Below are positions 7,601 to 63,850 of a stretch of DNA of 64,000 nucleotides, one piece after another. This DNA comes from Polytrichum commune. Its lineage: Eukaryota > Streptophyta > Polytrichopsida > Polytrichales > Polytrichaceae. The notes under the pieces were generated by a model, which saw only the letters and a program-made list of their open reading frames with translations, ran no database searches and had not been told where the DNA came from. Both the position numbers and the translations under genes were made by a program. The DNA lies in contig OX485804.1 of the NCBI GenBank assembly GCA_950295325.1, positions 32,304,001 to 32,368,000 of the forward strand, read 5' to 3'. Each line of letters begins with the position of its first letter. Position 1 is the stretch's first letter.

Positions 7601-10600
7601 TTCTAAGGGTCGGTTTACACTATGGACCATGACGTCAGACCATGGAAGAGGGCCTTTTTCAATGGTCCGAGTTCATGGTCCAACTTCTTAAAAAAATCGA
7701 TTTTGGAAGTCTTGGGCCCCTCACTAAGTGTAAACCAAATGTGGACCAAGAAGAATGACCATGCACCAAAAAGTGATTATGCAACAAACAAAAAAGTTAA
7801 TATATGTCCAAAAAGGGCATTTTTGAAAAAAAAATCAAGTTTGCTCATTCTCTTGTCTTCCCTTGGGCTTTACTTGTCTTCACTTCTTGTTAAATGGGTC
7901 GAAGATGTGGTTTGCAAATCTTGTCACAATAATTTTTACAAAAAAAGTGAGCGATTTAATATGTACATGTTCAATGTAATTTACATGTGACATGTACATA
8001 CCTTGTGTTGTCCATTGAGCATTATTTGCAACCGCTTCACCATGTGCACTCAAATTCTTGAGTTCTAAATGTCCCACACTGTTTGATGGAACGTGTGGGA
8101 GCAAGTTTGAGGGGTAGGGCATGGAATAATTGGTATGCCTCATGGGCTATGATACGATCTAGGCACATAAAGGATGGACTTACTTCTCAAGATTCATTAC
8201 ATCATATAGATGATGAAAATTATGTCTTGTGAGCCTTACCTAGTGGGAAGAGTTGTATATAAAGCCACCCAAAAAAAAATTCATTAAAAAGGTATTATAA
8301 CAACATTTCTCTGTCATGAGCCCTTGCCTTTTCTTACCATACCCTCTCTCGTGCCTCTCTCACTGCAAAGCCTGTTGGACCATGTCAATGTATTAATTAG
8401 GCCTTAAAATATGTCTTTTGGAGACCGAGACCTCCATGATCACTCTGCCATTTTTTCCTTGGTGTAAACCGAAGTGGTCCCCATGACAAGTTCTCACCGC
8501 AAAGCCTGTTGGACCATGTCAATGTATTAATTAGGCCTTAAAATATGTATTTTGGAGACCTCGACCTCCATGATCACTCTGCCATTTTTTCCTTGGTGTG
8601 AACCGAAGTGGTCCCCGTGACAAGTTCAACAACCAATCAACGCTCTTACAACACCCTGGAACAATTTCTTGGTCCATAGTGTAAACCGACCCTAGAACAG
8701 ACACCAAAAGGACATCCGTTTCAAAGAGATTGGATTGCGTGCTCAAAATATGATAATCACGAACTCTAGGTACTCGAACCAACATATGCGGGGGGGAAAC
8801 CATATGACCATTTAATGTCAAGCACAAGTATCTTCACTTTAATATTGAATAACACATTATTCATATGAGCTCCAAAACTTATGAGGAAAGTGGCTACAAC
8901 TTTGATTTGGGGTTTGCTAACCATCATGTACTAATCGCGTGTTTCATAGCCTAGGAAAAGTGGGCAAGTCAGAAAAAAGGTAACCATTTAAGACCCATCT
9001 ACCTTAGTGAAACATGTTGTAAAGTGGACAAAACCTGGGTGAATGGAAGAAGCTACCCAAAAATTCATGTGACCAACTCACCCCGTTCACAGCATCCTTG
9101 ACAACACGCATATCATCGATATCAAAGATCTGGTAAACAATCTTCTTCTTCATCTTCTCCACACCTTCGTGGCCTTTCAGAGCACTGTCGCTGTCTTTCA
9201 GCCAGATCCCAGTCGAAGTGAAGACAAAAATCCCCACCAATGTGTTCCAAAATAAGATGACCGTGGACAAAATCCAACAAAGTTTCGAGTTTCCCTTCAT
9301 CTCTCTCTTCCTCCTCTTTGCCTCCGGAATGGAGGGGAGCTCATCAGGTTTACCCAAACGCCGTGTACAAGCCAGCAGCAGAGACATAAGTGAAGTTCCG
9401 TCCCCGAGAGAGTGATGGATTCGGACCACCATGTGAGACTTTGCAATTCCAGATGTCCCGTTTAGTATGTGACACTCCCACAGTGGACGGGATGCATCGA
9501 TAGGTGGGGCACTCGCAAGGTCACTTAAATAATCCTCAACAAATCGAGGAGCTGCCCTAATCTCTGGCTCGGTGTAGCCAGTCGGCTCAAACACATGGGC
9601 ATTTATATCAATTGTTACTGGAACCCACACATCCGTCCCCTTGCTGTCCTTGCTCTGCAACATGTAAGGGTCTCAAGTTAGTGAATCATCGACGGAAACC
9701 ACGAGCTTGCAACCGACTCCATTGCAAATTGTTCTGTGTTGTAGCCGATACAGATTCGGTCAACGCCTACCAGAGGGTTTAAATTAGTAATTGAAGGCAA
9801 CAGGAAGATTAGACAAATGTAAATCGACTAAGGTATGTGCGGACACTCTTCTTTATTGGAGTGGTATTATATGGCAAAGCTTGCAGGTTAGAACAGACAC
9901 CCAAACATCATGAGTCGCAGAGGAATTGGACTATGTGCTCAAACTATAGACACCATTTTAGGTCCGAAAGTGAGCACTGTTGGGAGGGCCTATTTGATCA
10001 GTTATAAAGAAAGAGAATCTTCACTTCCAGCTCCTATGACTTTCGTATTTGAACACCGATTCTGGAACACCGATTCTGTGCGCATTTGTCTCTAAAAACG
10101 TTACAAAACCAAAACCAAAACATGTTATGCAAAGCATTCTTGAGCGTGTGTAAGGACGTTCTCATTCTATGCTAAAATCGAGAATAAATTCAGCAATCGA
10201 GGTCCTTGATTAGATGCACGAATGATGCCAAGCATAGTCTATTGGCAATCTCTCATTAGTGGACACCTCATGTTACATATCTTCGGACAAATCCTTCTCC
10301 TATCAACGAAAAATTCGTTTTAAAGAACTTGCCGAAAAGGATCTCACCAAGGTTATATTCTCCAAGATTCTTACTCGATTCTTATTCAGGAAGAATACAC
10401 ACTACACCACTTAAGAATGCTTAAAAATGCTATATGTGTAGTAGCCAGAACAACTTGGTCAACTCCTCACAGAAGGTAATTAGAAAACTGAAGGCAGGAG
10501 GAACACTAGACCAATGATCGGGGAGAACCGGCAGTTAGTTACAAATGAACCGGTTGCGTTTGAGAGAGAACCGGTTGAAGTTCAAGACTGCAGGATATTT

Positions 10601-15609: not shown

Positions 15610-17065
15610 ATAAAGGTGCCTTACGAGTGAGGGGGCAATTCTCCATGCCCTTCCCGGTCACCAGCCAGCTGTCAACGGGTTACGGGCTTTCACATTTGGC
15701 AGTTGTTTGGTTAGTCATCGTCTTCCCTTCCTGCCCTTCCTTCCTTCTCCACTTCGACCTCTCCACTTTCAGTTGTTGCGATGATCGAGCACTCCTCCGA
15801 GAGCAAATGTGGTGATTCTCTCTTTCGCTTCTGTTCTTATGAGGCAAGTTGTGTGGAATTCGCTTACTTCGGCATTACTTCCAACTGGCTTGTTGTTGGA
15901 AGGAGGTAGGAGCTTCTCAACATCATCTTTGTCATCGACATTCAGTAGATTCGGTTAGAGGCGTAAATCGTACACGTTTTGAACTTCGTCTACTTGAATA
16001 GGATAACACCAGCTGCATGTAAGAAGAAGATCTCGGAATGTGGGATCGCTGATTTGAGAACTCCTCTCAAGCCTCCATTTCCTGCCTAATTACCCGAGTA
16101 GGTCTGGTTTATGATGAAATGTACCTTAGTCGTCTCTCACATCTTTGTCCTTGTAAGGCAGGTCTTCAAGAATTTTCCATTTTGGTATGGACCTTCAATG
16201 ATGAGGGAGGAGGCAATGTTCGTATCGTTTTATAATACTAAAGCTGAATGCTACTCGTCGTAGTAGGTAGGGCTTTTGAAGCACAAGCACACTGAAAAAT
16301 CAGTGGAACCAAACAGATGGTTGTCTTTTGCTGCAATCGACTTGTAGTATGGTGGGGCTTTATGAAATCTATTCATGGTAAACATAGTCACTGCTTGAGG
16401 CCCTTATGCAGAGCGTGTCTGAGACCGTAGTAGACAAGGTGTATGTCGTTCACTGGAAGTGTTGACGAAGAGCTCACAGGAACTGAGGAGTCATTATGTG
16501 TTGCATTTGAAAACTGCATTGCTTTATGTGTGGCAGGAAGGTTTGCCACCAAGTATGACAGAGAAACAAAGAGGAAAACAGGAAATCAGTTGGGACCTAT
16601 GTGTCCCTATCAGATGGAAGTATATTCACAGTGGACGAAAATGCTTTGTGATTGTACTCTCCTAAATTTCTGCACATTGTTGCTTTGTTGTGCTTTTTAG
16701 GTTTTCCGGTTTCTTGATGTTCGGACTTTGACAAGTGCTCTCGATTCACCTCGAACGTATGTATCTATCAGCTTGAGAGCTTTGAAATTCTCTGAAAGCA
16801 AGATGTTTCATAGTTGATCTAATTAGCAGTTCAGAGGACAGCTCTTGTCTCCTTGGATCTTTAGGGATTAAAGTCTTGCGCTTGAATCTTTGAGAATTTC
16901 CTTTCTGCGTAAGGGTTTCTGATTTCATCCTTTGAAATGTTGCAGGACATTTGCTATAGAAGATGGATCATCGCAGTTTTTCTCATAAAATGTGGCTCAT
17001 ATTAACCTCGAACAATTTCAAGGAATTTGGAATTTAGGAGTAAAGAGCATTTTGCCTCAGAGGTC
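15610..17065 (+). other. ASI1-like promoter and 5' UTR region
   Basis: A pyrimidine-rich stretch at 15640-15830 precedes several acceptor-like sites (about 16945 and 17036), so the 5' UTR is probably spliced. Short frames at 16443-16700 have no family signature and are not called as genes. Confidence 0.4.
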
Positions 17066-20000
17066 ATGGGCTCTGAGATGCAGGATGGATCAGGGGGACA
17101 GGATATGCTTCCTGTCAAAGCTGAAGATGGAGCTAAAGATGAAGTTCAGGAGGACAAAATAGTTTGGGGACAAAAGATGGCTGGTGGCAACTTCAGGACT
17201 GTAAAAATATCGGGTGAAGAGTATTCTCTCTATGACTGCATTCGATGCCACTCAGGGTCTGACTTAGACCATGTTGGGAAGATCATGAGAATGTGGCAGA
17301 CAGAGGATGGGAAGCTCTGCAATATCCGGTGGTTCTTCAGGCCTTCCGAATTGCCACCATTAATCAAAGGGTTGGACTATTTACCAGACAGAAAAGAACT
17401 TTTTTTTGCTTCTGGGAAGGTGAAAGGAGTGGAGGATGAGAATTTTCTGGTAAGCAGTAACATAGGCAGTGTTCGGGACATCCGTACTGTGGAGAATGAT
17501 ATCTTCTTGGTAAACAGTGCTCACAAATTTAAACCTATATATCAATGTCAAAAAAATATATGTATAAGAGTACATGTCTAATAATAATATTAGAAGTAAA
17601 GTACTGCATGCAGTGGATGCAGATGCTTTAGGCATGTGAAGCAATGAAACACATGCTTTCTATACGAATACATTGAACATATCCTTTCCTTGGTAACAGT
17701 CTTCTTGAGGGTAAACTGCTAGTTGATGGTTTTAGCTGCTGTCGAATATGCAGCTGTTGATTGCTATAGACAATTACCAATTGACAACACAAGAGCCCCC
17801 CAAATTTGTGCTTAGGGTAATGTAGTCTGGTAGTTCAGGTTTGGTCCAATAATATCAAACACCTATAAAGCGATAGTAATATATGAGGTGCCTGGTTCAC
17901 CTGCAGTATGCGCTCATGGCTGAGCATCTTCCCTATACAATCCAGATGCACTTGTAACACTGTGTTTTGGCATTGCATTTCTTAGTGTTTACACATTAAT
18001 TAAGCTGCAAAGGTTTTCATATTCTGTTTGTTTCTTTAATTTTTAATGTCTACTGATTTAAGGTTTGTGCATAAGTGCTTGAGGGCTGTACTGAATCCCT
18101 ATTCCCACCAGGTCTACGATTTTTCCAAAATTTAATCTGCTACCTGTTATCTTTGCTTAGAACTATGTGAATTTTCATGTGTTGTATGCAGGAAGTAATC
18201 GTTGGGAAGTGCAGAGTTTTGTGCACTGCAGAGGATGATTACAATAAATTGCCTTCCAGTCAGCAACTACAGGTTGCTGACTTCTTCTTCAATAAAGCCT
18301 TCGATTGTGATGCAATGGAAATTACTGGACTTGACATTCTGTCCGAAGATATTGGGGGTATTCACTTAGAACCTATTTTAACATGTATTTGAATATGCCA
18401 AGTTCTACTTCTGCTATCAAATAATTAAGGTGCTGCAGGCTGCCATTCGCCAAAATTCTGCCTTCTTTTGGATTCCTTCATGTGATGTGGGGGAAAAATT
18501 TGCAGGCTGTGGTAGTTTGTGGTGTAAGTTGATTGTAATACGACCCTTTCACTTGCTTGGTAGATCTGAGTAGGGATTTGTGTCCAAGCTGATTTAAGGT
18601 TGTTTTGTCATTTATTGGTGGTCTGCAGCTCAAAAAGTATTCAACAAGACAGAGTGGTTGATAAACAAGTCTCCAGGATTTGCCACCTCCCAGGTTACTT
18701 ATACTAGTCTTTGTACCAGTTTGCTTTACATTTTGTCATTTGTACTCTCTTGTTTTTCATAGGAACTTGTTGTAATTTCTTGGGGGGTTGCATATCACTT
18801 GAGCTGGTACAATCTCATTTTTGTTTATGATACTTCTCTATCTGGTATTGCAAGTAGTCCTTGGATGTATTCAATTCATCTACTGTACTTCAACATTTTC
18901 CTGCTTCTACCTTTGTGATTTTCTGAGTAGCGTTCAACCTGTTCAGGTATCATCTCCAAGACTACATTGCCAGTCTTCTGGCTCAGGGGCTTCACCAATA
19001 CTTGAGGACCCTACACAAGTGCCACTGCAATCAGGTCAGAACGTTCCAGCAAAGTTGAAGGTGGAAGATGTAAGGACTTTGAAGGTGAGCAAGAAGCGGA
19101 GAAGGGATGAAACTAAGGGTTCACCAGTACCAATTACAGAGAACAAAAGGGGCAGAGCATCACCTGATTTCAAAAAGCCTAAAGTGGTAGTTGACAGAAG
19201 CTCTCCATTAATAGTGCCTGGTGAGGAACATGATGAACTTATGCTTGAGTCAAGGAAGAGTATGATACACACTTCTGATGCACGACCACAGAGTGTTGGC
19301 AATACAGGACTTGAGGCTTCTTGTGTCAAGAACGGCCCACAGATTGCCTCCCAAGAAATCAGATCAGAACCTGTCCCAAGTGCTGGGAAAGGAGGGGTCC
19401 TAAAAAGTCCTGCAACTGCAGTCCCTCAATTACAAACCAAAACAGTGCTCAAAGGGGAAGGAGTACATCCTAATCATAGTGAAAATCCTACCAGTGGAAT
19501 TGCCAACAAAATTGCTTCAAGGCCCTTAAGAAGGACTGAGCTCTCGGCTGGAAAGGAGAACCCCAGGAAACTTGAAAAGAAGCCTGAGAAAGGAAAGATG
19601 GGAAATCTTAGGCAAGGTGCCGGTCCTGTTAAGGGAGGTAGCAATATGTGTGATGAATCCAATCTATCCAAGAAACCTGGTCTTGCCAGTAAAAGGAAGG
19701 ATGATGGAAAAACTGTGACGGCCATGACCATGCCACTTGAGAAAAAGTTGCCACCATCTGCAAAATCAAACGCCACTAAGGAAATTGGGAAAAATCAAAG
19801 TGAAGGATATAGAGAACAATCTGAACATGGAGGAAGGAATAGCCTACTGATATCTGGTTCTCTACCTTCAGGAAAGGTTGACATACATGGAGTGGTATCT
19901 AAAAGGAAGGAAGATCCACCGCAGATAGTTACATTGGAACCAGAAACTACAGCACCCATTGGAAAGGTAGACAGTGTGATTGTTGTGGACAGGGACCACC

Positions 20001-22550
20001 TTGGAAAATTTGAAGAACAGGAACCTCAACAGGTGATGATGTCCTTCATTGTGAATTAGATGTTGAGGAATGCTTGTCTTTGTCATTTCAACTTGTCAGC
20101 ATCTCTGATGTGGAACCATGCTAGTATTAGCCCACATGACTCAAGTAATATGGAGTTGCAAATATTATTCTATCACAATAAACTCCAAACACTAATTCTC
20201 TGGTAGTTCATTGCTTATTGCCAAATAGGTTATTCTTCTATGAACCGACTAAAACAAAGTTGGTTCTGGTCTATGATGGTGCAGATTCCTCGGAGGCCTC
20301 TATTCAAAGTCAATTTGGAAGTAAGTAACAAACAACTTACATCATATATTTTTATTCTAAGCTTCTCTCTTGTGGAATTTGTCTGACAAACTACTATCCA
20401 CTCCACTTCAACTGGTATGATATTTTTTCAAAGAAAATGGATGGCTATGTTTTTCAACTTAGATCACAGCTGAATGTGTTGTAATGGCTGGGGCTGGACA
20501 GGTGTGGGAAGATTCCATAGAAAGAGCTGTCAGAGCTAAAAGAGTACTACTTCTGAAGAATGTGGACCCAACAGTCCATTCTAAGGACTTGGAGGTCTCT
20601 TCCTTCACAATTTGCCCTTTGGAAATATCTGGATTTGTGTCAATTGATTGGCATGGCAAACTCTGATGTCCATCAACTTTTTGTATGTGCTCTGGAGTAT
20701 TGCAACTTTGCAGGAGGTTCTCACCTGGTTACCATACAAAATGCAGGAATCACTTACTCAATTTTTCAAAACAAGATGTGAAGTGCGAAAGGCACCAGGG
20801 CTGACTTTCAACTATTATGATAGTGGTATGTATCTTTCTCAACTGCGACTAAAGTCGCTTGTAAGCACATCTATGGGAAGCTAAAAATATAGAAATGAAG
20901 GATGTACTAGTTTTCATGTCACTAAACATGTTGTGCTACTATCTGTTGTGGAAGTAGCTGCAGCTTTGCTGAAATTATCTACCCCTAAAAAAGCTGAGGA
21001 GATCTTGCAAAGTATGGAAGACAATTGTTTAGTGTTGGGAGACAGGTATGATCTCTTCTAAGTTAACAAGCTATAGTAAAGAATCAAACTGATTTCATTG
21101 GATGGTAACATGTAACTTCTCTATTCTGCTTGCTTTGAATGTTTCACGAAGTGTTCACAAGTTTTTCTATATGGGCATACTTTATTTTTGCACACATCCA
21201 GATATATCTGGAAGCAGATTTCAAATTTTTGAAGGACAGTATGTACAACCCAATGACTTTGTGAATTCCCTTTGATGGTTCCTGCAGGCCAATAATTGCA
21301 ACCTTGTTTGAATGTACTCAATTTCTGAAAGAATTCCCCAAGTTCCCAGGCCATCTTGACATCCAACAGAAACGTGACCGGGAGGATCATGTATAATTAG
21401 ACATACTATACAGCTCATGAATGCTTCATGTTCAGCAATTTGCTTAAAGTTCAATTTGATAGTCAAGCCTGCAATAGAGGAACTTGTACTTGCAAGTTGC
21501 CTATCCATGTTCATTCATGTTTTGTTATGTAAAACATTCTAAAATCTCTATGTTTGTCACTCATCCACATCTCCACATCTTTGCAGAAGAATGCATTGGC
21601 AACATCACATGCTGCTCAAGGTAACACAATTGAGTTCACTTATGGACAACCATGGCGATTGCTACAAGAGCAGCATGATATGCAGTGGAACATTCTTAGA
21701 GAGGTAAGCTTTATAAAATCCTAGTGCAAAAGTTTTTATGATTGTTGATTGCAAGTGAAAATGCATTTCCAATGCTTTTCTGAACCACGTGTTATTTCTT
21801 TACTTTGATTGTTCTTGCATTATTCAACAGACTTTCTGAATTTTAGCTGAGAATGAATGATGAACCCATCCCTACAATATTCCCTGGGTGATAGAAAATG
21901 CCCATTTATGCAAGAGTACTCAAACGAATATTCTTATTGATGGCTCGTGTCTTCCTCTCCTATCCAGATCCAACTTTTATCTGCCATTAATTCAACAATA
22001 CAATAGGGTTTAAAATTTTTAATCAATGGGACTTTTTGTTGTGAGTTGGTCCCTATGATTTTCCATTGATTGTTTTACATACAATATGAATAAATCCTTT
22101 CCATTTGTGCTGCATGCTTGGAGATAGTGTTTGAATTTGAATATAGAGCAACCTATTTTGGTTCATTGAGGGCTAAACTCATCTTAGCACCCCTTGGGAT
22201 GCTGAAATGACATTTACCTTTATGAACCAAAATAGGTTGCTCTGTATTCAAATTCACACACTACCTTCAAGCATACCAAACATGGAAAGTTGTTGTAGGC
22301 AAAACAACCAACCCCCAACCAAAAGTTATGTTGAGTTAAGAGGAATACTTTAATCTTCTAAATATGGATGTTCATCATCCATGTATTTTAACTTGAGGCT
22401 CCTATACACAAAGAAGTTACATATCATTTTCACGTTATTCAATTAATATGTAATTTTCATACTGCAGTTACATTCTAAGGCATGTCAATGTTTGTACTGC
22501 AGCTACATCAGAAGGAATTGAGCATGTTTGACAAGGAGCAGTTTCGCTGA
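17066..22550 (+). CDS. ASI1/IBM2 (SG1)-like BAH and RRM protein
   Basis: Eleven exons: 17066-17449, 18192-18357, 18629-18693, 18947-20032, 20285-20320, 20463-20594, 20714-20825, 20955 (or 20964)-21045, 21288-21390, 21587-21703, 22503-22550. Phases agree throughout and give about 779 aa. A BAH domain spans residues about 48-170 (SLYDCIRC, VGKIMRMW, IRWFFRPSE, VGKCRVLCT). A long Lys/Ser/Pro-rich disordered part comes mainly from exon 4 (about 206-567). A degenerate RRM begins at VLLLKNVDP (about 607) and runs to LVLGDRP, followed by a conserved tail (SHAAQGNTIEFTYG, WRLLQEQHDMQW). This order is that of Arabidopsis ASI1/IBM2/SG1, a nuclear chromatin reader that lets full-length transcripts pass through heterochromatic introns and controls polyadenylation choice. 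A conserved role here is inference. The phrase GTGGAG..GA and its GGTAA donor recur at 17495-17520, offering an alternative end for exon 1. Confidence 0.88.
22097..22289 (+). repeat. long near-perfect hairpin in ASI1-like last intron
   Basis: The arms 22097-22166 and 22222-22289 pair over nearly 70 bp with a loop of about 55 nt. The inner 40 bp (from GAATTTGAATA to TATTTTGGTTCAT) carries only one or two mismatches, some of them G:U pairs in RNA. It may be a small MITE or an inverted duplication able to form a pre-miRNA-like or siRNA-producing fold when transcribed with the host gene. Confidence 0.75.
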
Positions 22551-38015: not shown

Positions 38016-39545
38016 TTATCTTGGGGATAATTGATAAGTGTCAACGTTGGTGAGCATGAAATGTTGTGCATTTATGCACACCTTTAGGAGGTTGGTGATT
38101 TGGTGAGTGGCCACATTATGACATGCAATTTCAAGTTCTTTGAGAATTTTTTTGTTATAGGGGGATAGTAGGTGTGGCCAAGTGTCTTTATCATGATTAG
38201 AGCATAGTGTGTAATTTGGGTTGGTATATATGTGGGGCCAATTTTTTTTGTGTTTTTCCATTTTATTGGACAATCTAAATTTTAGTAGTTGTGTTATTTG
38301 GGCATGGGTAGTTTGTTGTATTTTTCACAAGCGATTAGATAATTTATGGCTAATTTGATTGTTTGAGACCCATTTTTCCATGTATTTATATTGTGTGGTT
38401 TTTTTCGATCGTATGTTTATTATGTTAATCTTTGATGTAGGCCATTAAGCTTGTAATTATGCATGCTAGATTAGTACTTGAGGGTGGTTTTGCTAGTCTA
38501 CATGAGATGGTGTGGGGAGTGGGGGTGATGGTTCCTTTGGCAATACCATCATTTGCTAATGTGTTTGCTAAGTCATTCCCTATGATGCCCATGTGGGCTT
38601 GAACTTTTAGTTTGGTACTATTGTGAGGAAACCGATTTATATGGTGTACTATGGATACTATTAGGAGTTTGCATGGGTGATTGTGTTGGGATGAGGGGCG
38701 TCCTACATGGTTGTTGATTAGGTAGATGTTATTTTGGATATGTGGAAATATGTGTATGTTGCATGAGATTTGTTGGATGTTGGTGAGTGCCAATAAGATG
38801 ACATAAAATTTGGCTTTGTGGATATTTTGGAATGCGGGGAGTCTTTTGGCTATTTCCATCATGTTGATTATGCTATATACCCCTAATCATGTGAGATTGT
38901 TGTTGCCCTTGCCATTTAGGGGGAGGGTGTAAAGAAATCATATGTGAATATGCATTAGGTTGGATGTATTTTTGAAGCTTTTGGGGTAAACTAGTCTATT
39001 AGTATTGGTAGGGTTGGTAGATTGGGGATTGAGTATGTTAATTTTGGGGAGCGTTCACACTTTGCAAGGGTGTTTACTTTGTATTGTTCTATGGTGATTG
39101 TTGGGTTATATGTTGGATTTTTTATGTTGTGAGCATTTGGAATGACTTTGTATAGAATATGTGACTCGTGGGCACAATGTTTCAATTGTGTATGAAAATG
39201 ATTGATGTAGTGATGTGTCATGTTGGTTGTAATATGAGGGCATCGAGGAGCGAAGGGATATCAGTAGGCATTGGGTGGGACATTTGTAAAGATGTGGATG
39301 TCTTGGTGTGATATTAGGTCTAGCTTTTGTGGTCCAATCATTATGGTTGAGAGTCATTATGGTAATGTTGTCGAGGTCTTCTTTGGCTGCCATTCTAGCC
39401 CAGTGTATAGATTCAACCATGGTGTGGTGGTCAATGGGGTTTGTGTATTTGGAGCCAATCCATTGCAAAGATATGGCATTTTCATGTAAGCCAAATATGG
39501 GATCTCTTTGGTAGGGGGGGGTATTGTTTTAGGGTGGTAGGACAT
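38016..39545 (-). pseudogene. LINE-like RNase H and C-terminal region, decayed
   Basis: The - strand fragments read in order: an upstream block (VESIHWARMAAKEDLDNIT), an RNase H domain at about 38862-38500 (AKFYVILLALTNI, NIHIFPHIQNNIYLINNH, AHMGIIGNDLANTLAN), then a C-terminal piece at 38273-38016 with a Cys/His motif (CSNHDKDTWPHLL). RNase H followed by a Cys/His tail is the end of ORF2 in plant and fungal-type LINEs. The Asp expected in HIFTDSQ-like context is replaced (HIFPHIQ), and the usual NDLADxLA reads NDLANTLAN, so it is catalytically dead. Frameshifts separate the blocks. Confidence 0.6.
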
Positions 39546-40521
39546 GTGAATGGTTAGAGAATATACAAATGGACTATGTTGAAGTGAATTAGGAGGTTAG
39601 TGATTATTGGATGCATGCATTGGTGTGTGTTTATGGGTAGGATGCTTTTAGGTTTTTTTTCTTTCTTTCTTTTTCTCCTTGAAAGGATGGAGACGTAACG
39701 ATTTACTAGCCAAACTACTTTGGTTGCAAAGTCCTATGATGGTGGGTTGAAGGTAGGGAGGTAAGGAGCAGGTTGGCTTCATTTTGTGGTATCTTTGCAG
39801 AGCCATCTAATTCTGTCCAGAGTTGTTGTGGTCATGTAGGGTCCAGTGTAGTCAAATATAACGCATTTTCTAGTTGGTTTATTGATACACTCTGGGATTG
39901 TATCTTAAGCCTACATAGGGTACATGGAAGAGTTTAAACTAACAAATCCAGATGCTATAACACCAGGGTTGATACCCACTTGAGATTGGCATGTGTACCA
40001 TTGTGAAATTCCATATTATTACTTATTATATGCCCTTTGAGATTTCATGGAAAATTTGAAAACCACGACCCGCCAGGTATCAAAGCTTAAATTTTCATCA
40101 TTCCCTTATCCACTGGATTATACAAAAAATGAGACCTGCACAACACTTGTACTAATGAATGTCGGATGGGTATAGAGGTGAATGCATGCTATCAAGACAC
40201 AGTATCAATATAGGTACAAAAGAACCTAACCAACTAGTATCAAAATTGTTAAACTTGATACATATTGATACTTGATGGGTATCACAAGAGAGAATAATTG
40301 TACACCCGATTTTATTATCTAGGTCAATAACATCCTAATACCTCATTAATACTAGGCAGTTTTACCTAGATATGACGGTTCTTGCATGAGATATGAAAAC
40401 AATATATCCTCAAGTACACTACTTGTACCCTGTGGGTATCAAAAAAAAATCTAATAACTCTTTATATATACCAGAGCAATAGCCCAAAAAAAGGTGATAC
40501 CAACCCAACAATGGTATCAAC
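39546..40521. repeat. region with recurrent TGATACC/GGTATCA words
   Basis: Between about 39885 and 40520 at least nine words related to TGATAC(C/A) or GGTATCA occur on both strands (near 39885, 39970, 40078, 40200, 40241, 40257, 40268, 40280, 40435, 40495, 40512). No gene is seen. The array lies immediately 3' of the PRG-repeat gene. Confidence 0.45.
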
Positions 40522-42208
40522 CTACTCCACATTCTCTGAGCCATCTTGAGGCCCACATTCATCAACTTCGCTCCCATGTCCCTGGATTGGCATCCCGCGG
40601 GGATTGCGAATGCTGACACCACGTGGATCGTGTAATTGAGGCAGATGAGGAATGTGAGCTTGAGGACCCAATGTTAACCCTGGATCCCCATTGGGAGAAA
40701 TTCCAACCCCTCTTGGGTTGTGAAAGTGCGGCAGGCCATGTCCAAACTTGGAGTGACTGTTGACCTGTTGCGAAGCTACTGTGTCTTGTGTTTGTGTTGC
40801 AGGGTCAGACTCTCCTACCTCCGGTTGCATTGAAATTCCAGCCCCTCTGGGATTCCGGATTTGAAGAGGAAGATGCACAAAATGGGGTTTCTCATCACCT
40901 TCGGATCGCACGCCTACTCCTCGGGGATCGTGAAGCTCTTGTGGTAAATGCACAAACTGCGGCTGTGTTGAATCTTCGGGTTGAGAGGGACTGGATCCCA
41001 CCCCATCAGTAAGCTGCCAAAAACCATCATATACAAAAAGAAAAAAGTTATATCCTCCTTCACACCCAACGGAGATAAGATTATATGCCTCGAACCCTAA
41101 AACCCTAAACCCCAAACCCTAAATTTGGTTCATCTGGCAAGTGTTGCACCATGTACTAGTAAAAGTTCAACATGAAAGACTATGAAAGTATGCTTCATAC
41201 AGACACTTAAAGAAAAGAGATGGTCTCCTGCATCACAATATACAGATGTTTATCGTTTCACGACTACCTCAGGTACTAGAGATGCAAGAAGTTGAATTCG
41301 ACCAACAACCACTTGTGATATAAATACAAGCGACTTTCTCTTAGTGCCTACCATGCGATACCACGTATCTATTCACCATTCACCATGAAATTCTGAGAGT
41401 ACCTATGGAATTTCTAGCCAGACTCGGACCCATCCTGATTATTTCCTCGTCGACGATCCTGGTAAAATGCCCTACATTTGTACAACCCAGGTCACCAACC
41501 TGACCTCCCATGGGCTCTCTCTATGCTCATTGAACATTACTCCGCGATGAATATATCTTATCACTAAGCTTCACGACATTGAAACTCACCAGAAAGACCA
41601 TAAATGCACAAGAAAGAGCTACCAGTTTGTTCTTAATCATCATCTGTCATCAAAGATCCCAATACAGTTAGTTGAAACTACAGCCAAACCCCAGCATCCT
41701 CGACTCATTCTCAATGATGCGATCCAGGCATGTTAGATGTACTAGTCTCTCCAAAACCGTACAAATTGCTAACCCCGACATTGAGTCTAAGAATTGAGTG
41801 GCTTATGATAAACATTATTTGTGAAGAAACTAATATAGTGCTTGGTGAGTTTACTCCATTAATGTTCAGTCAAACCCTAAACCAATGTTTGCTCACTGAA
41901 CGACCTAACTGATCGAGGTTTGAGCTGGTTCTAGTGAAGTTCAAATTGTAAGAAGTGATTCATGATTCATTGAAGTAAATAAAAATGAAGCATTAATCCG
42001 TTCTCGGGCTCCTAGGGCCTGTTTGAAACTAAATTACATGCAGTGCATTGACGAGATTTCAACCACATCCACAAGCATACTAACAACACGTAGATTAAAA
42101 AATATATACTTTAATATTATTGTAGGTGACACTTCATAATTAAGCTGCAGAAAACTAGCACCATACCTCGGCATTGTTGGTCATTGGTTTGCTTCCTTCA
42201 TCCGCCAT
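40522..42208 (-). CDS. unrecognised 177-aa protein with repeated PRG-centred motifs
   Basis: Two exons, 42208-42167 (14 codons, donor GTATGG) and 41013-40522 (acceptor TTTTTGGCAG), join in phase. The product is hydrophilic, without signal peptide or membrane helix. Exon 2 repeats a core (H/R)(D/N)PRG(V/A)(G/S)(I/V): LHDPRGVGVR, IRNPRGAGIS, FHNPRGVGIS, LHDPRGVSIR, then NPRGMPI. Three or four are preceded by a HLP element (FVHLPQ, FVHLPL, PHLPQ; GLPHF in one). Spacers are acidic and Gln/Ser-rich. I know no family with this pattern. It could be a repeated binding motif or an intrinsically disordered scaffold; a peptide precursor is less likely without a signal sequence. The 1.15-kb intron holds a telomere-like tract. 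The start ATG 42208 gives MADEGSK. Confidence 0.65.
41092..41123. repeat. short interstitial telomere-like tract (CCCTAAA type)
   Basis: AACCCTAAAACCCTAAACC continues with one more degenerate unit, ending CCCTAAA. It lies in the intron of the PRG-repeat gene, about 80 bp upstream of its exon 2. It may be a telo-box regulatory motif or chance. Confidence 0.6.
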
Positions 42209-43640
42209 AGCTACTGAACAAAGCACCTCCTCGATCACATAAAATCTGGACACTCACAAATCAAGAGCTGGTAGTATCAATGCTCCCTGACTACAGTACT
42301 TTCATTTCACATGCGCTTGCTTCAGATTTGAGCAAATACCTACTAGAGCTCCGACATTCATCATGTCATAGGAAATGAGTCTAATGAACTCAACAGCTAT
42401 CAACCTACCTCACAGGATGTGACAAATGCTCTCCACATTGCAGAATCTAATCCGCAACCACTTGAAACGCTACACAAATTTATACAAAACCTACTTTCAA
42501 TTAAAGCTTGCAAACGTTTTTGCTAGATGAGAAAAACCTTCTATGTGATATACAAGAAGAATGAATCAAGCAACGAACAACCAACACGTGGCCAGGTCAC
42601 TCGGTACAGAGAACTTCAACAAATCTCCATGGATCTCCTCCTCCGACTCTGCAACCCTGTGTTCTGCGAAAACTCTGGAAACTCTAATTTGATTTGGAGA
42701 ACTTCAAATATAAAGGCCAAGCTGTGAAGCGTACCTCACAAACTCGCAATGGCCACCTCGAACACAGCTTCAACTATAGAAAGACCGAAAACTACCGCTA
42801 ATAGATCTTTTCGTTTCTGCGTCTGCTTGCTTCCGGATTCATCCGCAGGCTGCAGTTTAATAGGCTTTCATGCTTTGGAAGCACTCGTCGTTGGTTGCAA
42901 GCAAGAGAGGTGTGACTGCGAGAAGAGAGAGTGTCAGGAAGGGGACATCGCATGTGCATTATGGAAGAAGGCAGCCACGTCATCCCTCCTAGGTGGCACA
43001 ATTACATCCATCTGCTGGAATACTCTCATCCACTCTTCATCCGGACTCTGACTTCAATAAGGAAGAGCATGATCACACGTTGTACACCAAACGCTAAGAC
43101 AAAGAGGTGTTAAATCGGGTAACATTATTTTAGAGGGGAGTAGTCTCATTATACGTTTAACACGTTCACTCTATAATGAGCTTCATACACTATTGCTCCC
43201 ATGATCAATTTCTAATATCTTACAATACTCAAGATTTTATATATAAAAATATTAACTAAAGCTAGTATTCTATTTGGTCAAATAATTTGAGGTATTAATA
43301 GTTGGTTATCTTATAGAGGAGTAGAAAGTTGAGCCACAATATACTAAAGCCATCTTTCTTCGGAAAGGCTTTCTAGGCCCCGCCAATGAAAATTATAGCG
43401 ATTAGGCCTATGTGTGGGTTCAGCTCACATGCTAAACCCAACACTCTTCCGTTTCGGGGATGTTGTATGAAGAACCAGTGAACATGCTCTAAGTGATGGC
43501 GAGAGGGAAGTAGGTGTGATCCCATACGAGCGTACTACCTCTCATTCATCCAACATTAAAGCCTTGGAATTAGAATGTAATATGAAAGTTTTTATTTTTT
43601 ACCATTTCAATTGACATCGGAATTGCTTTCAAAATTTTCA
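42209..43640. other. PRG-repeat gene upstream region; no convincing gene
   Basis: The promoter of the - strand gene is expected here. A 100-codon + strand frame at 42749-43051 starts MATSNTAS and has several Cys, but no family signature and no conserved splice context; it is recorded only as a possibility. Confidence 0.35.
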
Positions 43641-44712
43641 TGTCCTCTAGTTGCCACCCAGAGATTGCCAAGTCATTTACGTTGATTGATGACAAATATC
43701 TAGCATGGCCTACACTAGCATATGTATAGTGTAGTGTACTTCACATTGTTTGTACCTATTTAGGTGTGTAACGTTTTTCATCATTCTTGGATTGATATCA
43801 AAGCCTACGTGGTCACTTCATGAGACATTGCTTTGATGCTACATGACAAGTCATGCCACTCAAATCAAAATTCCACATCAATCTTAATGCCATCCTAAAC
43901 CATATATGTGGTGTACTTAATTACCTAAACTAGAGTGCTTCATGCAATATTATATGTCTAATTTAGTGTAGCATTGGAATTCATGCACCATCTTGATTAG
44001 AGTGCCATCTTGCATGACTTCTCATTTAACAACAAGTGACCAAGGTTACCTTTTTTGGTTGCCACGCAACAATTGCCAAATCATTTACGTGGGTTCACAA
44101 TGAATACCTAGTGTGGCCACACTAATTGAGATATATAGTGTAGTGTGTACTTTCATTGTTTTGTAAATACTGAAGTTTGCAAAGGTTCTCACACATAATG
44201 GGATTGATGCCAAAGCCTATGTGGGTTTCAACCCTCTTGGTTTGCTACAACAATATAAAGCATGGATGCCACTGTAATCAACACTGCACATCAATTTTAA
44301 AGTCACATTATCATAGAAAGATAGATAGTGCACTTACCTTAACGCCAGTGCCGTAAGGCATGGCCTAGGTTGTTCTATGAACAGACACTTTATTCACTCC
44401 GGCCTCCTCCGGAGACCGGAGTTCTTCTTCTTCTTCTGCACTTACCTAGAGAGCTTCGTGCTACAATTAATGTTTATCTAATTTAGTGTGCATTTAACAT
44501 TGATGTGCATGCCATGTCAAATAGCATGGCTTGCATGACGTGTCCCGTAAAAACAAGTGTCTCAAACCACCTTCTTTGGTTGCCACCCCACAAGCACCCA
44601 ACACCTGCCATATCATTTACTACATGGGTGTGCCGTGTATAAGCACCTTGTGTGGCCCACACTAATTCACATGCATAGTGTAAGCACCGTGTACTTTACA
44701 TCATTTTGTACC
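43640..44712 (+). repeat. three diverged tandem units of about 400-520 bp
   Basis: Blocks beginning TTGCCAC and containing AT(C/A)ATTTAC, then TG(T)GGCC.ACACTA and TAGTGTA...GTGTACTT occur near 43650, 44060 and 44578. The 44060 unit is lengthened by the 97-bp SINE-like insertion at 44340. No coding frame is conserved between units. Confidence 0.6.
44340..44436 (+). mobile_element. 97-bp SINE-like insertion with 11-bp target duplication
   Basis: TGCACTTACCT occurs exactly at 44329-44339 and 44437-44447, flanking a 97-bp insert. The insert ends in (TTC)n after a GC-rich inverted word (CTCCGGCCTCC TCCGGAG). A parallel tandem unit near 43912 lacks it (GTACTTAATTACCT then AGAGTGCTTC), showing the empty site. 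Long duplication and 3' simple tail suggest LINE-machinery retroposition. No clear pol III box is seen. Confidence 0.6.
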
Positions 44713-45446
44713 TAAGGTAGACAACCTTAAAATTTTACTTTTCTTATTAGGACACCTATATTTGAGTGGTACGTGGTTCAGTGTGGCTCCAAGAACACGT
44801 ATTTAAAAAAAATGTGTTTTAAGGAGATTGGATTTTATGCTCATATTATGATAATCATTCTAGATTCAATAGGCAACATAATAAAGGGGACTAGAGTAGA
44901 GGCACCCATAACCGATCACTTAAGATATTTAGCACTAGATTTGGAGAAGTATAGAGTGGTGCAAATTTTTCCAGTGTAGGAATATAGAAATCACACGGAT
45001 TGCAATTTGTTTGGTAATTTTATTCCTTCAATTCAATATATTGTGAAGATTTGAAGCCAAAAGTTGGTTCAAACATTTTATCAATGTGTGCAATATGCCA
45101 TAACCACTCATTCCTCCTCACTTTAGAGATCAAAACTAGGACATGTGCCATGGCATTATTGGTTCCAGCTTGATTGAAATTCAACCTCATATTGATCAAA
45201 ATTCTGGTACCCTATAGATTATCGATGGGGTCCTCATGAGGAATAAATGCCTCTACTATATGTGACAATTTAGTAGGTATGAGAATCTCTCACTTTGATA
45301 ATGAGAAGATATTCACACAAGGTCCAGCAATTAAGGGGAAAGTGGCTACAGCCTTGATAAGTTTGGATTTGCCCACCATCTTGTACTAATTGCATGCTCA
45401 TATTGCTAGTTGGACAAAGTAACCATTTAAAGACCCATCTACCCTA
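44713..45446 (+). repeat. AAGGTA-family repeat, long copy (734 bp)
   Basis: It starts TAAGGTAGACAACC and ends AGACCCATCTACCCTA. It shares ATTTGAGTGGTACGTGG, GTGTGGCTCCAAGAACAC, GAGATTGGATT and GGGGAAAGTGGCTACA with the WSD intron-2 copy. It is longer than the 360-380 bp copies. A frame at 44773-44979 inside it is not conserved in the other copies. Confidence 0.55.
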
Positions 45447-46477
45447 TTCAAGTTCGCAAAGTTTTTCACAATGCTTGGAGTGATGCTAGAGCCTACTTAC
45501 GAACATGGTCACATTGGTCAATGGTCCCTCATGTACTTTACTGAAGATAATTTAAGGTGTAAGTCCAGCTAGCAATAATCTAGACACCTATATTTGAGTG
45601 GTACGTTGTTATGTGTGGATCTAATAACAAACACCAAGGAAATATATGTTTAGAATAGGCTCGACTATGTGCTCAAAGTGTGTTAACTATTATAGGATCA
45701 ACAATCAACATGATTGAGGGGATGTATACGACCACTTTATCAATAGTGTGTTTTCACATGCATTGCCCAAATAACCATGATAGGTGGTGACAAGGAAGAG
45801 GTGAGACAACCCATACATTGGTACCTTGGAGACGTGGGTTGCAGTCATCCAACGAGGAATCATTGTATGGGTTGGTTCGCCTTCCCTGGAGCACGATAAC
45901 CTTTACTTTGATAATGAACAAGGTATTCATGTAACCTCAAAAGAGTTACAATATGACACAAATGGCTATTGGGCACGGCTGGGATTTGCCAATCATCTCA
46001 CACAAAGGTGGATATTGGAAAATGATGAAAATTAGTTGATTCAGCCCAAAATAGTGGCTTAAAATTTGTGCAATATTTTTTCAGAAATGGAATAGAGGAA
46101 ATGATGAGGCAAGTTGATTCAAACATTTTATTTATGTAAAATATTGGTTACATTTTCTCAAAGAGGCAAGTAGGTCTAAACCCCTACTTGTATAGTAGAG
46201 TCTCCCTAATTTGAGCATCAAAATATCCTCCTATGCATACAAATGCACATAAAATGGTTAACCCAAAAGTGGCACCCAAAAGTGATCGCAAGTGGTATGA
46301 AGTAACACCTATTTGGCAAATCACTACATCCTTTTCGGGCCACCACTTTTACAATTAACCATTTTGGGTCCACACAAGAACCATCCTACCCCTAGTCTAG
46401 TGCACTAGTAGTGGTCATTCACCATTTTCGGTTTTTCTACCTTAATTACGTGTTTCATGCCCTACAAGAAGTGGGTG
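45447..46477. repeat. further AAGGTA-family debris, no gene
   Basis: 45575-45700 repeats GACACCTATATTTGAGTGG and a GTGTGGATCTAATAACA block of the same family. The rest is AT-rich with short frames only (for example 45826-46035), none of them recognisable. Confidence 0.45.
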
Positions 46478-58642: not shown

Positions 58643-61600
58643 ATGATGGGAGGGTTAACCATAACGCACGGGCTGCAGCAGGCCAGCTCAATTGCGTTGG
58701 CGTCGACGAAGAAGGAGGGGAGGAGAATTTCGTCGTCTTTCCTCGTCGGAGAGGATGTGGGATTGAGCGGCAGTCGCTTGGGGTTCAGGCGCAAGGTCGT
58801 GAATTTTGAGAGAGTTTCACTAGGGTTTTCCTGCGGGGGGTCGGGGCGTGTCGTAGTCGTCAGTGCCGCGCGGTTGCGGGCGACGGAGAGCGCGGAGACC
58901 TCGGCTCCAGAGGCAGGTTCGTTGCAGTATTGTTTTTATCCCCTTTCCTCGCGTACTTGACAGGTGGAATAGGAGGGTTTAAGAGACCGTATAAACACCT
59001 TCGATTAATCTCGTGACCTTGTGCTTTGGCAATGTGCTCAGTGTCTAATTGAGTGTAATTTTTTGGTGCACTTGAGAGGTGGATTACGAGGTTTTAAGTG
59101 CTCATGTAAAATATCTCAATCAATCCTGTGTCCTTCTCATCTGGCAACGTGCTCAATGAGGAATCGAGTGTGGGAGTTCTGGTGCACTTGAGAGGTGGAA
59201 TAGGAGTATTGAAGTGCTCGTGTAATGAATTTCGACTAATCCTTGTGACCTTGTGGTTTAGCAATGTGCTTAGTGTGTAATTGGAATAGAAGGGTTTAAG
59301 CGCTCATATAAATGTTTTGATCAATTCTGTGAGCTTCTGGTTGCTCCATATGTAATTGAGTGTGGATTTTCTGGTGGACTTGAGAGGTGGACTAGAAGGG
59401 TTTAAGTCCTCATAGAAATGTTTCAATCAGTTGTGTGACCTTTTGCTTTAGCAATGTGGTCAGATTGTAATTGAGTATCCACAAATAGAACACTCATGGA
59501 GTGAGAATTACGTAGGATGATATTATGCTGCGGAAAGCCCAGTGGAACTCCTCCGCAAACCTGTAGGAGCTGGTCAGTTCAGTGATTGTTTTTTAGGACG
59601 TGGTACAGTGGCTCTAGAACTAGCGAATCCGGAAGCCGGCAGCCTCCTGGGATAGTTTAAAGGGCCTGGAATGAGCTGGGGTAGCCGTTCCTAGATTTAG
59701 ACATGCATCTCTGAATGATTTGGCAATCATAGACTAAACAGATACTTCATTCACGTGAATTGAGACTGGCTACACCAATCTTAGTACCAAAAATTAGACA
59801 AAAGTGTGTGACCTAGTGGGCAGTGCTCCCTGCAATATCTGAGAAAATGTTATACATGAGTTCGTCGTCCCTGTCTATGAATTTCAAGGAGACTCTAGCT
59901 ATGCAGGTAAACTTCAAAGACTGGAAAAGTGAAAATGCTAGAGTTTTCGAAATGAAATGATTCTTTAGCATGTGGGCATAATATTTTAGCAGAGTACAGG
60001 TGTTCTCTTTTCAGAGAATACAAGCCTGGATTATTCCCATGGAACACTCAAGATTCTACAATTTTCGACCTGAATCTGTAACTTATCATGCACTATCTAC
60101 ATTTTGATTCTTTCAAGATGTGGTCCGTCTAATAAGATTTTTTATGTGAGAAGAGGATTGCAGCATGTGTTTGGAAGTCTTGGTTGAACTGTTTCTGATG
60201 TTTCATAATCACGAGGAGAACACCTGCTGCCTGCTTAGTATTGTTGTGGGTTTACATGGTTTTGGGCTTATTGCTAATGTATAACCATCATCTGCAAAAT
60301 GTATCTGCAAAATCATTGTCCATGAGATCCCTTTCTCAAGTACCATTGGTGGTATGAAGTGTGGGAATTGGAGTAAGGTGAAGGTCTTGATGACAGATTT
60401 GGTTCGGGATGACAAGCAGCCATCAATCAAACGGACTGCTGGAGCCAAGGGTAATGAAGGGAAGAAGAGCGAGGGGAACAAAAGCAAGGGGAGACCCAAG
60501 ACTCGTGCAAAGAAGGTTTCACCAAAAAAAGCTGAAGAACAATTACCTCCAGCTCCAGCTCCCACTCCAGCTCCAGCTCCAGCTCCAGCTCCATCCAAAG
60601 ATGAGACTAAGAGACCCAGACAGGTCAAGACCCCCGCCAATCCAATTGCATCCAGTACGTCTTCTTCCGGTTTATTGTCCAGTCTGGATCTTGCCGATAT
60701 TAAGGCACCTCTGCTCCTACTTTAATCTGCATGAGACTTCGTGGGTGTTGTGATGTTGTGATTTCTTTGTATGGATCCTCCATGAGATTTGGATCAGCTT
60801 CACAATTTGATAGATTCCGGTTTTGTTAAGTGCCATTGAGCACATCATAGCGTTTTGATGGTGGATTGTAAAATCATTGTTGAAACGAATTACAAAATTT
60901 GATCTCTGGTGACCTCAAAAAGGGTTGCAAAATAACATTCTGGAATTAAAATTGGCAAAGAGTTTTTTCAACCAGTACCCTTTCATATTTCCAGCAAGAA
61001 GACTATATTATCCTGTCTAGAGGTTCAATATTTACAAAACTGTGAGCAGATACCCTTACTAACCATTGGTACGCTGTGTGCATTAGCCTCATGTTTTGAC
61101 AGTTTTGAGCAACCTGCAAAGAAAACAAACATGCTGACAAGCATATTAACTAACAGACTAATTAAAACTTTATGTCGTTATTAATCCCAGCTGGAGTGGT
61201 TGGCGTTCTTGTCCACCTTGCAAGTGGTGTGAGTTCCATTATCCATTGAGCCATATCTTGGATCATATCTTGCATGACTCAAATTGCCAGTAGATTCCAG
61301 GTCAGAGCAACAAATATATCTGTAAATATTTAAAAGCAACATGAATTTCCTCAGGCATTAAGGCCACATTGAAGTTCCAATTGCAGAAATCCCAACACAT
61401 GTGGGTGAGGAAAATGGGCACCTGGATCATGCTAAAGAGACCACAAGGGATGTAAAACTCACAATCCAAAGAGTGCTTGAAGCTCGTGCACTTTTGGCGA
61501 GCAAGCTCCAAGATGCAGAAGGCAAGCCCTCAAGTTCTGGTGATGCTGCTCAGAAGGACCTGACCAATGAAAACACTATAAGTATGGCACGTGAGGTACT

Positions 61601-63850
61601 GGCCGGGTACAGGAAAGGATCAAAAGAGAAAGGGCGTCTTTTTGAAGGGAGAACTGTGGTTGAGGGGGATGGCGTTCAGGACTGGGGTGCTAGCCTTTCA
61701 CGGAGTGGCCTCCTCAAACCTTTGGCTCGGAAGGGAAGTTTGTGGAGGCGGGACCTAGGGACTCTTAATGACCACCAGAATTTGCCTGAGCAATCTGATA
61801 TTGTGCGAAAGGTATCTTTGAACTTCATCTGTTTCTGGTTTATGGTTTGTGTGATGTTGGCACATTCATCCTAGTGTACTATGTATTGTTTCCTAGCTAT
61901 CCCTACTTTAAATTTGTATGAAGCTGGACAAAAAATTACACCTAAGGTCTTCCTGTTGAACCTGGTATTCTGTGAATGAGCTGATTGTAGATGGCAATAT
62001 TGTCACTAAAATCTTCGTTTACTGAGTTTGTTTGTTCAGGTTGTGGGAGCCCTGTCAGGGATTCGTAACAGCACTGCAGTTACAACTATCATGAATGATT
62101 TTGTTGGAAGGGTGACAATGGCTGACCTAAAGCAAGTGTTGTATGCACTTGGAGTGGCAAAAGAGTGGCTCACTGCTCTGCAGGTCCACCAACTGCTACC
62201 TTTCAATAGATGACTTTTTGCACGGGATCACCACTTTGTCGTTGAAGTAAATAATTGGGGTCACTTGGGTGGTGGATATGAAGCACAGCAATTCTTCAAG
62301 TGAAATGATGAAACTGCAAGGTCGGGGTTTAGCCATGGTTGAAAATTTACCTATGTGAAGGAGTTTATAAAAATCGTCCATGTGGTTCAAATCGGCATTG
62401 GATCTCTTAGGCTCTCACAAATCACAAGCTTTGGGTTATGAAAGCCAATTTCTGCTAGCTTAGATCATAATGGTAAAATCAAGAGATGGCAGGGACTTGT
62501 GTGAATGAGTTCTAGCTGGCACACAAGTTCTGAAATGTTTTGGCATATAACTTCAGTGCTTTGGCATGAAGGTGAATGTTTGATATTGATTTTCTAAAGC
62601 GGTTTTTGGGTCTTAATACAGGTTTTTGAGTGGATGCAAACAATGCCTGACTACAAACCCGATGAACCTGTTTACCGCACCATGATCATTCTTTTGACAA
62701 ATTGCCGAAGAATGGATGTTGCTGAAGCCACTTTTGAGGATTTTTTAAAGCTAGACAGGGGGCCAGGATATGAGGACTATGTTGTCCTTATCTCTGGCTT
62801 TGTTAAGTCTGGCAGCTTACAACGGGCCTTAGCAATCCTAGCAAAAATGAGAGATGCTGGTGTTCGCCCACAACTCTCTGCATACAATGTTCTTCTTGAT
62901 GGATGCACAAAGTCTTCAAAAGGTGTGTGTGTGTGTGTGTGTCCCTGCACTAAGGCATTGATATGTGTTCATGCAGTAGTTGTTGTCAGCTTCTTCTAAT
63001 AATACGACGGGCATATTAGGAATAATGGTGAACTATGAATGTTGCAATGGAGTGCACATGCAGGGCAATATGCTCCTCTGCTTGCTTCTGCATCTAAATG
63101 TGATAACCTTTTGTAATTGACCACAATAGAATTTTCTAGAGTTTTCTTAGAATTGCATCTTGCATGTTCTTAGAGTTTGACTTTCTTGAGTATTATGAAT
63201 ATTATGAACATGGCTATTATGAATATGACCGTGGTGTCAGTCATACCTGGATCCGATTTGAGATGCCTACCTTAAGAGTTGCAGAGAGTATGATGCACAA
63301 TGCAATTACCTACTTGATCTGTAATGGCCATTCGGACATGGGTGATGCCCATACCAGAGCCAAGCTTAAAGCATGCTTTTCTGAATCGTCTTTGTCTCCT
63401 CTTTGGTTATTTGTTGATGAGAAGAGTGTTCACTTTTGTGTGAAGCTTCAGATCCTACAGGTGACCTTTGTCATGGTAGGGCAGAGCTCTTGTGTGATTA
63501 TCTATTTGTTTCTTATTTTATCTGAGAGCTTGCAGCGAACAGCTTGGAAGATTTTTATTTTTATTATTATTATTATTTTTGCATCATTAACAACTTCTGC
63601 AAACAATGTTTACAAATCACATCCTTGTGATGCGGTTGTGTAGGATTGGAGGTCGCAGCTGAGCTTTTAAAGCAAATGAAGCAGGAAAATGTAACTCCAG
63701 ATCGTGCTGCTTACATTTATATGATAATCATGTACAGTCGCAAGGGCCGGCACCAACAAACTGTCCAGATGTTTGAGAATATGCGTCTGAGCAGCTGCGT
63801 TCCAGATAAGGCGACCTACAACACAGTTTTAACTGCGTACAGTAAATTAG
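58643..63850 (+). CDS. P-class PPR protein, probably plastid-targeted (3' end beyond window)
   Basis: Exons supported by phase: 58643-58916, 60397-60654, 61363-61811, 62040-62183, 62622-62922, 63644-63850, then a donor, so the gene continues past the window. The N-terminus (MMGGLTITHGLQQASSIALA, then Arg/Ser-rich) resembles a plastid transit peptide. Exon 2 is Lys-rich with a PAPAP run. From exon 4 come helical repeats: DLKQVLYALGVAKEWLTALQ, VYRTMIILLTNCRRMDVAEA, then canonical 35-residue PPRs beginning YEDYVVLISGFVKSGSLQRA, LSAYNVLLDGCTKSSK and RAAYIYMIIMYSRKGRHQQT, and the start of another, KATYNTVLTAYSKLG. PPR proteins bind organellar RNA. The exact orthologue is not recognised. An in-frame ATG at 58334 could add 103 residues. 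The junction of exons 1-2 is the least certain, and an exon could be missing in that 1.5-kb intron. Confidence 0.83.
58955..59480 (+). repeat. about five tandem 95-115 bp units in PPR intron 1
   Basis: Units begin with (GAGA/GACA)GGTGGA.TA.GAGGGTTTAAG near 58961, 59075, 59192, 59284 (partial) and 59380, and continue with TGTGACCTT.TG.TTTAGCAATGTG and TGTAATTGAGTG. The array starts about 40 bp after exon 1. Confidence 0.75.
62921..62942 (+). repeat. (GT)n microsatellite beginning at a PPR splice donor
   Basis: Exon 5 ends ...TCAAAAG and the intron starts directly with GTGTGTGTGTGTGTGTGTGT, so the donor is the first unit of the microsatellite. Confidence 0.8.

Follow-up and report, generated by a model that had tools for sequence, protein, structure and literature searches.

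The putative gene described here lies on the minus strand of the window (the whole 64,000-nucleotide stretch of DNA that was analysed) and is centred on one open exon that contains five short units with the tripeptide PRG at their core. Its features are listed below, with a slash marking the border between exon and intron in the donor sites.

40522..41013, minus strand: exon 2, 163 codons followed by TAG, with all five PRG units inside
40594..40602, minus strand: PRG core 5, RNPRGMPI, CCC CGC GGG
40618..40626, minus strand: PRG core 4, HDPRGVSI, CCA CGT GGT
40708..40716, minus strand: PRG core 3, HNPRGVGI, CCA AGA GGG
40843..40851, minus strand: PRG core 2, RNPRGAGI, CCC AGA GGG
40918..40926, minus strand: PRG core 1, HDPRGVGV, CCC CGA GGA
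41014..42166, minus strand: intron of the preferred model, 1153 nt, GC 0.39, phase 0, GTATGG...TTTTTGGCAG, with a pyrimidine-rich acceptor
41590..41643, minus strand: rival first exon, MMIKNKLVALSCAFMVFL, donor CTG/GTGAGT, signal-peptide-like, with a poor start context
42167..42208, minus strand: preferred first exon, MADEGSKPMTNNAE (MADEG...), donor GAG/GTATGG
42409..42438, minus strand: third possible first exon, MWRAFVTSCE, donor GAG/GTAGGT, coding score -0.83 nats
42478..42484, minus strand: TATA-like site (a consensus match only), 276 nt before the preferred ATG

Exon 2 has a GC content of 0.52, higher than that of the intron (0.39) and of the flanks (0.35 and 0.42); by codon position it is 0.71/0.46/0.40. 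Upstream of the exon the open frame continues through intron sequence to 41118 with no ATG on the way, and the first ATG within the exon (at the residues ISM) is downstream of the second PRG unit, so that a protein which starts at an ATG and contains all five units requires an upstream exon. When exon 2 is joined to the exon at 42167-42208 the spliced product is 177 residues long, with GT...AG borders and phase 0 kept. The earlier note had put forward a two-exon model with clean splice signals and phase, and the preferred model does fit that description. However, three other ATG exons within 3.2 kb upstream have a phase-0 donor scoring above 7.5 and could be spliced to the same acceptor, and to present a single clean gene model was too strong. 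The observation of the PRG repeats is sound and the locus is probably a real orphan gene. For the start of the protein, and hence for its intracellular or secreted fate, there are two predicted readings, of which we favour the MADEG start. The intron also contains telomere-like AAACCCTA motifs, at 41100-41121 and 41872-41879, which are three of the 9 in the window.

The coding potential of exon 2 was scored against codon usage trained on 34 segments (12,778 codons) from kinase, HSP70 and PPR exons of the same genome. Neighbouring or overlapping PPR loci (L029, L030, L033, L034, L035 and L040) were left out of the 40 training loci, and near-identical gene copies were kept, which makes the set partly redundant. 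The sense frame of exon 2 scores highest among the six frames at -0.012, with another sense frame at -0.043 and an antisense frame at -0.072 close to it. When every tile in the window is scored in whichever frame suits it best, 54 of 1271 are as high as exon 2; tiles above a cut-off of -0.02 form 11 clusters, which comprise exon 2, an acyltransferase exon, a BAH-like gene, repeat-type frames and several others. Among the training tiles one of 85 is as low as exon 2, in what is an in-sample comparison. The synonymous codon choice suits the genes of this genome more closely than its base composition would lead one to expect (4 of 2000 nucleotide shuffles were as good), and GC3, at 0.40, is lower than the 0.48-0.66 of the training groups. 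The codon evidence gives moderate support to a real gene that is not highly expressed, and the coding exon is probably real.

Other parts of the window also carry genes or their fragments. An exon of a wax ester synthase/diacylglycerol acyltransferase is found at 9007-9672 on the minus strand (PF03007, E 1.5e-10), and a PPR-repeat exon at 62598-62996 on the plus strand (PF13041, E 4.5e-10). At 17006-20056 a BAH-like exon (17066-17578, below the cut-off), which has one diverged relative (45%) on contig C1, is followed by a long charged frame. Elsewhere in the same genome there are fourteen equal-scoring light-harvesting (PF00504) matches on both strands within 95 kb (C5:1751760-1846160, loci L042-L045), which form a local gene cluster. 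Among the best 60 of 78 PDB matches to a light-harvesting exon of this genome, entries 7xqp and 8htu, which are Physcomitrium complexes, are closer than the seed-plant entries, in keeping with a moss-like plant; the match that ranks first is 9vfj, a 620-residue chain.

It is conceivable that there is no protein gene at this locus, and that exon 2 is a chance open frame or a decayed old exon beside transposon debris. Exon 2 scores near the bottom of the range of the training genes for codon usage, and the 3′ side is repeat-rich, with at least 43 genome matches for 38400-40521, itself included, when the best 40 of 1213 candidates were scored. Exon 2 itself, however, has one genome match, and the bias between codon positions, the fit of the synonymous codons, the five recoded repeats and the intact frame with its splice signals all argue for a gene, making a chance or decayed frame improbable. 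An accessory frame of a transposon was rejected, as the exon has this one match whereas the 3′ flank is repeated. In that flank an RNase H-like frame on the minus strand (38428-38886; PF00075, E 0.0086) is degenerate and below the cut-off and is therefore probably transposon debris, while 40158-40394 is a dispersed element of ~230 bp with many genome matches, most at 73-76% identity.

The five units in exon 2 follow the pattern [HR][DN]PRG[VAM]x[IV], with PRG at residues 44, 69, 114, 144 and 152 of the 177-residue product. HLP stands before three of them and GLP before another, and the fifth has neither, in agreement with the earlier description of five (D/N)PRG(V/A/M) repeats, several of them with HLP before. 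The repetition of PRG is not chance. Any tripeptide was seen at least five times in 27 of 100,000 shuffles of the protein, and the 8-residue repeat score, calculated as a seed plus its four best non-overlapping matches, is 136, a value reached by none of 5000 shuffles (mean 66.4, maximum 99). Among the 59 open frames of at least 100 residues in the window, four have a tripeptide at least five times, and the three others share a low-complexity stretch at 60212-60750. The units are alike as protein and differ in their synonymous codons, as expected from the claim that the repeats vary in sequence with the core kept, and the five PRG cores have five distinct codon triplet spellings, which bears out the view that there was no recent duplication of the DNA. 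A recent tandem DNA array was rejected given these differing codons and the unequal spacings between the cores (25, 45, 30 and 8 codons).

For the full units of 8 codons, pN is 0.26 and pS 0.72. Because the PRG core had itself drawn attention it was left out of the pN/pS test, and for the five non-core codons pN/pS is 0.52, with 49 of 2000 neutral star-tree simulations equally low, a ratio that rests on few sites with the synonymous differences near saturation. The same non-core test on four copies gives 0.44, with 86 of 2000 simulations equally low. There is some circularity in the test, since the units were picked by their common residues, and dropping the core lessens this and does not abolish it. 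There is modest support for selection acting outside the PRG core as well; the earlier suggestion of selection on the repeats is upheld by the non-core ratio, though at modest strength only.

Using the protein, the DNA and a 32-residue piece as queries, one match only was found in the 408-Mb genome (64 contigs, of which seven of 42 to 78 Mb contain about 406 Mb). The gene looks single-copy in its own genome; as these searches were rough, a diverged paralogue could still be present. Upstream of the gene, a 390-bp stretch (42480-42869) recurs at 89% on contig C7 (32323190-32323579), and in both copies TATAAAGG and an ATGGCC start are kept on the plus strand, the ATG in the window being at 42749. 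The C7 locus was rejected as a paralogue by position: nothing else from 39000-46000 of the window matches in 9.5 kb there, and its two PRG strings are isolated.

The earlier note had recognised no known family, and the protein databases agree. Pfam, searched up to E 10, gave nothing at all, PHROGs gave no match for the protein, the PDB sequences contain no relative, and NCBIfam returned two antiporter models alone (E 0.043 and 0.17), which are far below the cut-offs and were taken as chance. Rfam gave no result over 39900-43500. In one scan of prokaryote genomes 15 stretches fitted a pattern, and in one scan of viral contigs two did, with none confirmed in either; the scans are sensitive to close relatives only, because the six peptide patterns were taken from outside the PRG cores. 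A literature search with the motif strings found no paper, and the phrases ‘PRG motif/repeat’ led only to work that is unrelated by its titles and the opening lines of its abstracts. Over its own genome and the prokaryote and viral scans, the gene would seem probably lineage-restricted.

In the 3.2 kb upstream of exon 2 there are 29 phase-0 combinations of an ATG and a donor scoring above 3, with four distinct exon ends above 7.5; the donor weights come from general knowledge and may not be those of this genome. Over both strands of the window, 70 first-exon candidates have a donor of at least 7.5, nested ATGs included. The MADEG exon alone among these combines a purine at -3 with G at +4 and also C at +5, giving it the best start context, and its coding score of 4.1 nats without the ATG ranks fifth. 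Matches to the TATA-like consensus number 80 in the window, counting both strands. On start context and coding score the MADEG exon (42208-42167) is reasonably likely to be the true first exon.

The rival exon is within the supposed intron of the preferred model and has a strong donor. If transcription were to start nearer and exon 1 were 41643-41590, the product would be a secreted precursor of several peptides: the signal peptide would be removed, the units cut from their spacers and the peptides recognised by a surface receptor. Judged by hydropathy, the MMIKNKLVALSCAFMVFL exon is the sole signal-peptide-like phase-0 ATG exon (up to 45 residues) with a donor of at least 7 on both strands of the window (128 kb), which comes to about 0.009 such exons per 1153-nt intron at this donor limit, with the MMIKNKLVALSCAFMVFL exon itself counted. 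This rarity is overstated because the filter was composed after that exon was seen, and when the limits are relaxed to donor 4 and hydrophobicity 1.6 the window has 12 signal-peptide-like exon ends, of which this intron contains two. The arrangement of like units of ~15-18 residues between unlike spacers is the layout of multi-motif precursors, such as CEP9 with its five motifs (excerpt of PMC4526919), and the unit end NPRGVGI loosely recalls the GxGH end common to PIP and CEP. GxGH itself, on the other hand, is in none of the five units. The coding score of the MMIKNKLVALSCAFMVFL exon is 1.16 nats as against 4.44 for the MADEG exon, and the poor context of its start is accompanied by an overlapping out-of-frame ATG 7 nt upstream. 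The IDA and PIP families are reported as missing from moss in the excerpt of PMC4526919, and PIP as missing from non-vascular plants in that of PMC13091385. The rival form, of 181 residues, has no dibasic pair, no N-glycosylation sequon and no tyrosine. It would seem unlikely that the MMIKNKLVALSCAFMVFL exon (41643-41590) is the true first exon, and just as unlikely that the protein is a secreted precursor. That a moss-like plant has here a peptide hormone precursor of a new kind, with four to five HLP...[DN]PRGVGI peptides per secreted protein, is slightly more doubtful again. If the secreted form were true, this would be a multi-copy peptide precursor in a moss-like plant, where the loosely similar PIP is reported absent (excerpts of PMC4526919 and PMC13091385). 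Alternative use of 41643-41590 and 42208-42167 as first exons might also decide whether the same set of repeats is secreted or stays inside the cell.

The 177-residue product contains 12.4% glycine, 12.4% proline and 1.7% lysine, with no tyrosine and no tryptophan, and has a net charge of -12, a FoldIndex of -0.10 and a best 15-residue hydropathy of 0.17. It had been described as hydrophilic, which its GRAVY of -0.887 confirms. AlphaFold2, which had been suggested as a check for a repeated binding motif, was run on the 163-residue exon-2 part as a single sequence and gave a low-confidence model (mean pLDDT 45.8) with no helix of 4 and no strand of 3 residues. The model agrees with disorder but is weak evidence for it, as a single-sequence fold cannot prove disorder.

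Like short units on unlike flexible spacers are typical of multivalent docking proteins and equally of multi-copy peptide precursors. With the MADEG start, docking in the cytosol or nucleus is preferred, and with the MMIKNKLVALSCAFMVFL start, secretion and cleavage. In the preferred, docking reading a single-copy nuclear gene would be expressed as an acidic, intrinsically disordered protein of ~177 residues, synthesised in the cytosol and active in that compartment or in the nucleus. The HLP-x(3,4)-[DN]PRG-[VAM]-x-[IV] units would be old internal duplicates, each retained as a short linear motif, and the flexible spacers that keep them 8 to 45 residues apart are mutually unlike. The whole would most likely be a strand for multivalent docking, on which four to five sites of low affinity are offered to one putative partner or to several copies of it. 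Taken in full, as a single-copy and probably lineage-restricted gene for a disordered cytosolic or nuclear multivalent docking protein, we consider this reading evenly balanced between right and wrong.

A glycine content of 12.4%, an acidic character, the absence of a confident fold and a moss-like genome would also suit a desiccation protectant similar to LEA proteins or hydrophilins, in which a disordered glycine-rich chain shields other proteins and the motif is incidental. The hydrophilicity of 0.887, however, is under the limit of 1, Pfam gives no match at E up to 10 and the units appear to be retained more precisely than bulk shielding should require, and we think such a role improbable. 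If the gene is transcribed and conserved in relatives, its orphan plant protein would provide a short linear motif that is defined and can be tested. Orphan plant proteins usually give no handle, and the PRG motif would be one.

Comparison with known families shows partial likenesses. According to the excerpt of PMC4526919, the CEP, PIP and IDA families first appear in seed plants; that of PMC13091385 reports sequences resembling CEP and IDA from several further lineages of eukaryotes, and PIP from no non-vascular plant. In at least one of the CEP precursors, CEP9, a short Pro/Gly motif is present several times, but the C-terminal SPG(I/V)GH of the family is in none of the five units (excerpt of PMC4526919). 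The N-terminal signal peptide of CEP precursors has no counterpart in the preferred model, and the rival exon has something resembling one by hydropathy only. The same excerpt gives PIP/PIPL peptides a spaced proline and glycine, as at the end of our units, and tandem motifs in three members, whereas their SGPS and GxGH are both missing from the protein. It gives SGPS followed by (R/K)(R/K)HN for IDA/IDL; this is absent here, and the rival 181-residue form has no dibasic pair. PSY peptides differ through the sulfated tyrosine indicated by the family name (excerpt of PMC13091385), there being no tyrosine in either the preferred or the rival form. Hydrophilins are defined by glycine of at least 6% and a hydrophilicity index above 1 (excerpt of PMC5384071). 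The protein resembles them and the LEA proteins in being glycine-rich and hydrophilic with no confident fold, and its 12.4% glycine is above the first limit, but its index of 0.887 (GRAVY with the sign changed) falls short of the second and it has no Pfam match. The letters PRG are shared with AT-hook proteins. The AT-hook core is GRP between basic residues, with RGRP as its second half; RGRP is missing in all five units, there is no GRP anywhere in the protein, and the protein is acidic (net charge -12). Orphan, or lineage-specific, small disordered proteins are a known kind in plants. The product of this gene resembles them in the one copy found, the absence of a recognisable relative, its short length and its biased composition, and differs from them in having a regular internal motif.
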